NCBI GenBank assembly: GCA_027080315.1
Contig: JALWSI010000201.1
Location: 1 to 13,144, forward strand
Source: a bacterium
GTDB lineage: Bacteria; Thermosulfidibacterota; Thermosulfidibacteria; Thermosulfidibacterales; JALWSI01
DNA length: 13,144 nt
Direction: 5' to 3'
Under the pieces are notes generated by a model. That model did no database searches, was not told the origin of the DNA, and saw only the letters and a list, made by a program, of their open reading frames with translations. The stretch's first letter is position 1. Each line of letters starts with the position of its first letter. The position numbers and the translations under genes were made by a program. Positions 1-257 of the stretch are shown here, piece by piece.

Positions 1-257
1 CTTCTCTTCTTGCGAAGAGGCTCCCCTATTCGGTCTTGCTCCAGACGGGGTTTACCGAGCCGGCCCGGTCACCCGGACCGCTGGTGGGCTCTTACCCCAC
101 CGTTTCACCCTTACCTGACGCTGCTCGCCAGGCGGTCTGTTCTCTGTGGCACTTTCCACCCCTCTCGGGGTCTGGGCGTTACCCAGCGTCCTGCCCTGTG
201 GAGCCCGGACTTTCCTCTGGCAGACCCAAGGTCTCCAGCGACTGCCCAGCGGACTTG
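1..257 (-). ncRNA. rnpB: RNase P RNA (bacterial A-type-like), 3' part cut off by window edge
   Basis: Catalytic RNA of RNase P, which removes 5' leaders from pre-tRNAs. Read on the minus strand, it carries the family's most conserved strings: GAGGAAAGTCCGGGCTCC at about 203-220, the ACAGAGAACAGACCGCC block, GGTAAGGGTGAAA followed by GGTAAGAGCCCACC, and GAGCAAGACCGAATAGGGG. A helix of P3 type (CTGG-AGACC, loop, GGTCT-CCAG) precedes the first block, and a GCAA-tetraloop hairpin with a 6-bp stem sits at positions 4-19. The 5' end is estimated from the P1/P2 region (AGTCCGCTGG then GCAGTC) and is uncertain by several bases. Judged against the E. coli RNA, roughly the last 100 nt, including the 3' strand of P1, lie outside the window. 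The 5' part overlaps the end of the upstream RNase HI-like reading frame. I see no good sigma70 promoter just upstream, so the RNA may be processed from the operon transcript. Confidence 0.95.

Follow-up and report, generated by a model that had tools for sequence, protein, structure and literature searches.

Overlap between a gene for an RNase P subunit and another gene is known from Thermus, where rnpA overlaps rpmH, and the processing stalks of ribosomal RNA are helices of leader and trailer that are cleaved by RNase III. The type I 3'-derived small RNAs have an internal promoter of their own, located in a coding sequence or immediately behind it, as described for MicL in cutC, DapZ and MicX (PMC7821165). 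Ribosome profiling in S. meliloti shows that rnpB is normally untranslated (PMC10117765). In the open papers that we searched there was no description of rnpB nested in an RNase HI gene, which does not in itself prove novelty, and nothing direct on rnpB overlaps, a link between rnpB and rnhA, nested promoters or AntiFam.

Overlap of the RNase HI gene with rnpB

The window, by which we mean the whole stretch of DNA analysed (13,144 nucleotides), is an entire contig, C201, of a draft genome of 1.84 Mb. The open reading frame at its beginning matches the Pfam profiles RVT_3 (E 5.6e-23) and RNase_H (E 3.5e-12), both above cut-off, and the acidic DEDD residues D7, E46, D70 and D120 are invariant in our alignment A1; by these profile matches and residues the predicted product is assigned to the RNase HI family. 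In a comparison with NCBIfam, no equivalog cut-off was reached. The stop codon (TAG) of the upstream zinc ribbon gene directly adjoins the GTG of this frame, and the glutamate-rich end of that gene (window 650-670, GAGGAGGAGGAAGAGGAG) probably serves as the RNase HI ribosome-binding site as well.

The 5' part of rnpB was identified by cmscan with a score of 202.6 bits against RF00010 (cut-off 100), covering model positions 1-263; the match is cut by the start of the contig. The assembly breaks inside the gene, and its 3' part is found on contig C237 (locus L226, C237:1-110), a piece that carries ACAGAACCCGGCTTA and whose strands match and pair with P1 and P2 of the window. From this pairing alone we infer that C201 and C237 join within rnpB. 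The covariance-model score, together with closure of P1 and P2, identifies the predicted RNA as a class A RNase P RNA, and the rnpB genes of relatives in the same order score 265-325 bits against the class A model.

Table 1. Features of the window at the RNase HI-rnpB locus.
Feature	Positions	Strand	Basis or remark
rnpB, class A RNase P RNA, 5' 257 nt	1..257	minus	cmscan RF00010
RNase HI TAA, the UAA of universal GGGUAAC in the P8 loop	179..181	minus	
Overlap of RNase HI C-terminus and stop with 5' rnpB, P1 to P8	179..257	minus	ORF and cmscan coordinates
RNase HI-family gene	179..649	minus	156 aa, GTG start, TAA at 181-179
P1 extension, 5' strand (leader-trailer helix), still RNase HI codons	258..275	minus	pairs with C237 trailer
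Predicted 5' leader of rnpB precursor, putative start site near 317	258..317	minus	from promoter position
Predicted rnpB promoter: TTGAAA (352-347), 17 nt, TATATT (329-324)	324..352	minus	consensus and conservation
CT398-like coiled coil / C4 zinc ribbon protein gene	650..1384	minus	profile match
Nif3/DUF34 family gene	1386..2240	minus	profile match
tRNA-Met (CAT)	2298..2371	minus	

The sequence-only reading had proposed that the RNase HI frame runs some 79 nt into rnpB, which has the same orientation, and ends with a TAA inside it; the ORF list and the cmscan coordinates put the overlap at exactly 79 nt. It had further claimed that one stretch serves as the 3' end of the protein gene and the 5' part of the ribozyme, and this is what is observed, as the tail ...LPEESPGSTGQDAG* is what GAGGAAAGTCCGGGCTCCACAGGGCAGGACGCTGGGTAA and the base of P3 yield on translation. 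Its description of the overlap as P1-P3 was correct for those helices and too short: as the stop lies in the P8 loop, the frame contains P3 and the 5' strands of P1, P2, P4, P5 and P7 (cmscan alignment). A frame or sequencing error as the source of the overlap was rejected, since the relatives in the order keep the same frame continuously across the junction, which makes such an error very unlikely.

Among 60 relatives searched, the overlap was present in all seven order members having the gene (G001-G007), and thus in eight of eight with the window. Four of the seven stop at the same universal GGGTAAC as the window, while the other three stop in the P3 loop, with TAG, TGA or TAA, giving an overlap of 31 nt. 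Recurrence of the overlap at homologous loci, which that reading had named as a check, is supported, in the order and in several other lineages, whereas the stop position is not kept, three of the eight order members stopping in the P3 loop instead. As a consequence, the EESPGST tail is dispensable, and protein-level selection on it is unsupported. The sequence of P3 varies among the order members, and its pairing is kept, in an alignment judged by eye, although it is translated as codons.

Outside the order, linked pairs mostly show no overlap or one of a few bases, and the distance between the two genes varies continuously, with gaps of nearly 300 nt at one extreme and overlaps of 107 nt at the other. 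The longest overlap, in G038, is in a different frame; that of G224 (80 nt) extends into the RNase H domain, and similar overlaps occur in G225, G286, a Latescibacterota genome (L070) and two Omnitrophota genomes (L120 and L124). The nesting of the two genes thus appears, from sequence comparison, to be common to related and distant bacteria. Within the single family of G224, G082 and G353 (L176, L172 and L177) the RNase HI stop shifts from the start of rnpB to 80 nt inside it, which shows a possible origin of such overlaps. The prediction that the tail would look falsely conserved also came true: tblastn matches to RNase HI run across the stops into rnpB (L069, L074 and similar loci), reaching query residues up to 156, a warning that rnpB-derived tails mimic conservation in protein alignments.

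An RNase HI gene immediately followed by rnpB is a widespread and conserved pairing. Among the matches listed, 76 genomes have both genes, and in 46 of these the RNase HI gene shares the strand of rnpB and precedes it by no more than 300 nt; in 51 genomes the two are on one contig and strand, and 46 of the 51 fall within this distance. These are sample figures, drawn from the best ~150 matches of each search. Many of these loci have a tRNA roughly 1-1.5 kb upstream, and the order tRNA - (Nif3) - zinc ribbon - RNase HI - rnpB, seen at window 1-2371 and at many other loci, seems to be a conserved neighbourhood.

A predicted promoter within the RNase HI codons

The best candidate promoter upstream of rnpB in the window lies inside the RNase HI gene. 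It has 10 of 12 consensus bases, and in scoring with an E. coli-like matrix, entered by hand, none of 100 shuffled sequences gave a site as good. In the window's order, a promoter immediately adjoining the 5' end of rnpB was looked for and not found.

The TTG of the -35 element is the codon for the second leucine of 'LLK' (RNase HI column 101). TTG is a minor leucine codon, making up 1-20% of leucine codons in the loci of the order, and is used at this column in all eight order members (expected 0.8); AAA follows it in each member with lysine there. The same codon is found in 8 of 19 other rnpB-linked genes (expected 2.8) and in 2 of 25 unlinked RNase HI genes (expected 2.4). Because this enrichment pointed to a single codon, the codon was tested prospectively on 29 new loci of another phylum, 22 of which have a leucine codon at the column. 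Here TTG was found in 15 of 22 against 3.8 expected (P 3e-8, a value inflated by the relatedness among genomes, of which the P values given here take no account), and seven other leucine columns of this sample displayed no deviation in TTG use. Overall, 31 of 49 rnpB-linked genes carry TTG at column 101, as against 2 of 26 unlinked ones.

The -10 element behaves in the same manner. At a spacer of exactly 17 nt, its first position is T in 21 of the 31 TTG bearers compared with 5 of 74 unlinked genes, and its sixth in 25 of 31 compared with 11 of 74. Near-perfect sites occur in the prospective sample (TTGAAA-17-TATAAT in L220; TTGAGG-17-TATAAT in L210). Four order members, G001 and the single family of G002, G004 and G006, keep the TTG but have a weak -10. 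At several loci the internal site is missing and a good promoter stands at the rnpB 5' end instead (L199, L215, L217, L222, L011, G042 and G109). Position 6 of the -10 (window 324-329, RNase HI HMM column 110) coincides with the middle base of an RNase HI codon, and the promoter may thereby favour a hydrophobic residue at this place in linked genes.

These comparisons strongly support transcription of rnpB from a conserved promoter hidden in the RNase HI codons, and lend the same strong support to the earlier suggestion that a separate promoter makes a ribosome-free copy of rnpB.

The predicted leader, the extended P1 stem and a model for the locus

From the position of the internal promoter, a leader of ~60 nt is predicted for the window's order and one of 64-134 nt elsewhere. 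Six order relatives have a complete rnpB, and in each of them the codons immediately preceding P1 pair with the sequence that immediately follows rnpB; this extension of P1 is kept with differing sequence in these relatives, making seven genomes with the window. The extension tends to be stronger at loci with a predicted leader (mean z -3.4) than at those with a proximal promoter (-1.4; p 0.003, or p 0.009 when the window's order is excluded), a contrast that is post hoc and has seven loci on one side. RNAalifold on the small P1 alignment gave no net covariation bonus, a bulge separating two families there. Some loci of other lineages, L212 and L224, lack an extended stem although a leader is predicted for them, and an extended P1 as a general feature of rnpB was rejected, being absent from the overlap lineages L120, L124 and G286. 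Where it occurs, the predicted helix has the long leader-trailer form of an RNase III-type processing stem, which suggests that it is such a stem; by analogy with the rRNA stalks, RNase III may cut it.

The overlap, its recurrence, the conservation of the promoter and the extension of the helix, all read from the sequences, are combined in a model that we consider probable as a whole, in which rnpB lies nested within the 3' portion of the RNase HI gene and has its own internal promoter, a leader-trailer stem, and an operon mRNA beside it for the protein. A sigma-70-type promoter in the RNase HI codons would start a separate rnpB precursor, putatively near the position given in Table 1, and this RNA would be ribosome-free as it has no RNase HI start codon. 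Its leader would pair with the trailer, lengthening P1 into a processing stem from which the mature ribozyme would be cut by RNase III-like cleavage. The operon transcript (Nif3, zinc ribbon and RNase HI) would supply the protein, its ribosomes entering rnpB and halting at the P3-loop stop or at the universal P8-loop UAA. With the internal promoter as the source of most rnpB, the overlap would be tolerated; the model as a whole would resolve the conflict between translation and ribozyme, and a separate promoter is now the leading alternative of the two that had been offered.

Alternative explanations and comparison with known systems

The other earlier alternative was that rnpB is cleaved from the polycistronic RNA in competition with translation. 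In its strict form, rnpB has no promoter of its own and is released from the Nif3-zinc ribbon-RNase HI mRNA by cleavage, RNase III acting on the extended P1 stem being one candidate. The tight spacing of the genes and the wide conservation of the same-strand pair fit this, and the extended P1 flanking rnpB would be a natural site of cleavage; it leaves unexplained, however, why enrichment of the TTG/17/TATNNT pattern at one codon is confined to RNase HI genes linked to rnpB, and we regard it as unlikely. The claim therefore stands in so far as the stem suits cleavage, and gives way to the conserved promoter as the better explanation, although processing of rnpB from the operon mRNA may contribute too.

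A regulatory switch, in which translation through P1-P8 lowers the amount of RNase P RNA, or cleavage of the stem removes the stop and silences RNase HI, would accord with the depth of the overlap, which includes the 5' strand of P4, and with its retention in eight of eight order members having the gene. Against this, the overlap length and stop differ within the order (31 or 79 nt), the deep overlap is missing in most linked pairs elsewhere and there is no sign of regulation, and we hold this explanation to be very unlikely. Pure compaction, in which chance drift carried the stop into rnpB and codon usage happened to produce the internal TTG site, is the least probable of all, being disfavoured by the synonymous-site conservation and the prospective TTG test. 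The continuum of distances and the origin of the in-frame UAA in rnpB itself are nevertheless as compaction would have them, and drift may explain the overlap itself, apart from the promoter.

Under the internal-promoter model, the widespread RNase HI-rnpB pair gains a concrete reason, and an essential ribozyme shares a predicted promoter and the sequence of its 5' domain with a protein gene. We put forward more tentatively that in at least two phyla the rnpB promoter would shape the codons and residues of RNase HI and lock the two genes together, and that, where the 5' strand of the stem also falls within the codons, excision of rnpB from the operon transcript would remove the RNase HI stop, so that a transcript would yield either protein or ribozyme. 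The model is testable in any cultured member of the affected phyla.

The closest described kind of system is that of the type I 3'-derived sRNAs such as MicL, in which transcription from a sense promoter in a protein gene likewise yields a distinct RNA that corresponds to the 3' part of that gene; the internal promoter that defines them is found here as a predicted site, by sequence and comparison. Whereas those sRNAs are regulatory, the RNA made here is the housekeeping ribozyme of RNase P; its conserved domain overlaps the C-terminal codons and the stop, and a single codon position carries the site in more than one phylum. The RNA has the full conserved core of bacterial class A RNase P RNA (RF00010), and differs from the usual form in that P1 is lengthened by leader-trailer pairing and that the 5' end and the predicted promoter lie within a reading frame. 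As in the rRNA stalks, the flanks pair and enclose the mature RNA, but the 5' strand is here also protein-coding, and cleavage is proposed by analogy only. In Thermus, too, a gene for an RNase P subunit overlaps another gene; there it is that of the protein subunit, with two reading frames, whereas here it is that of the RNA subunit.
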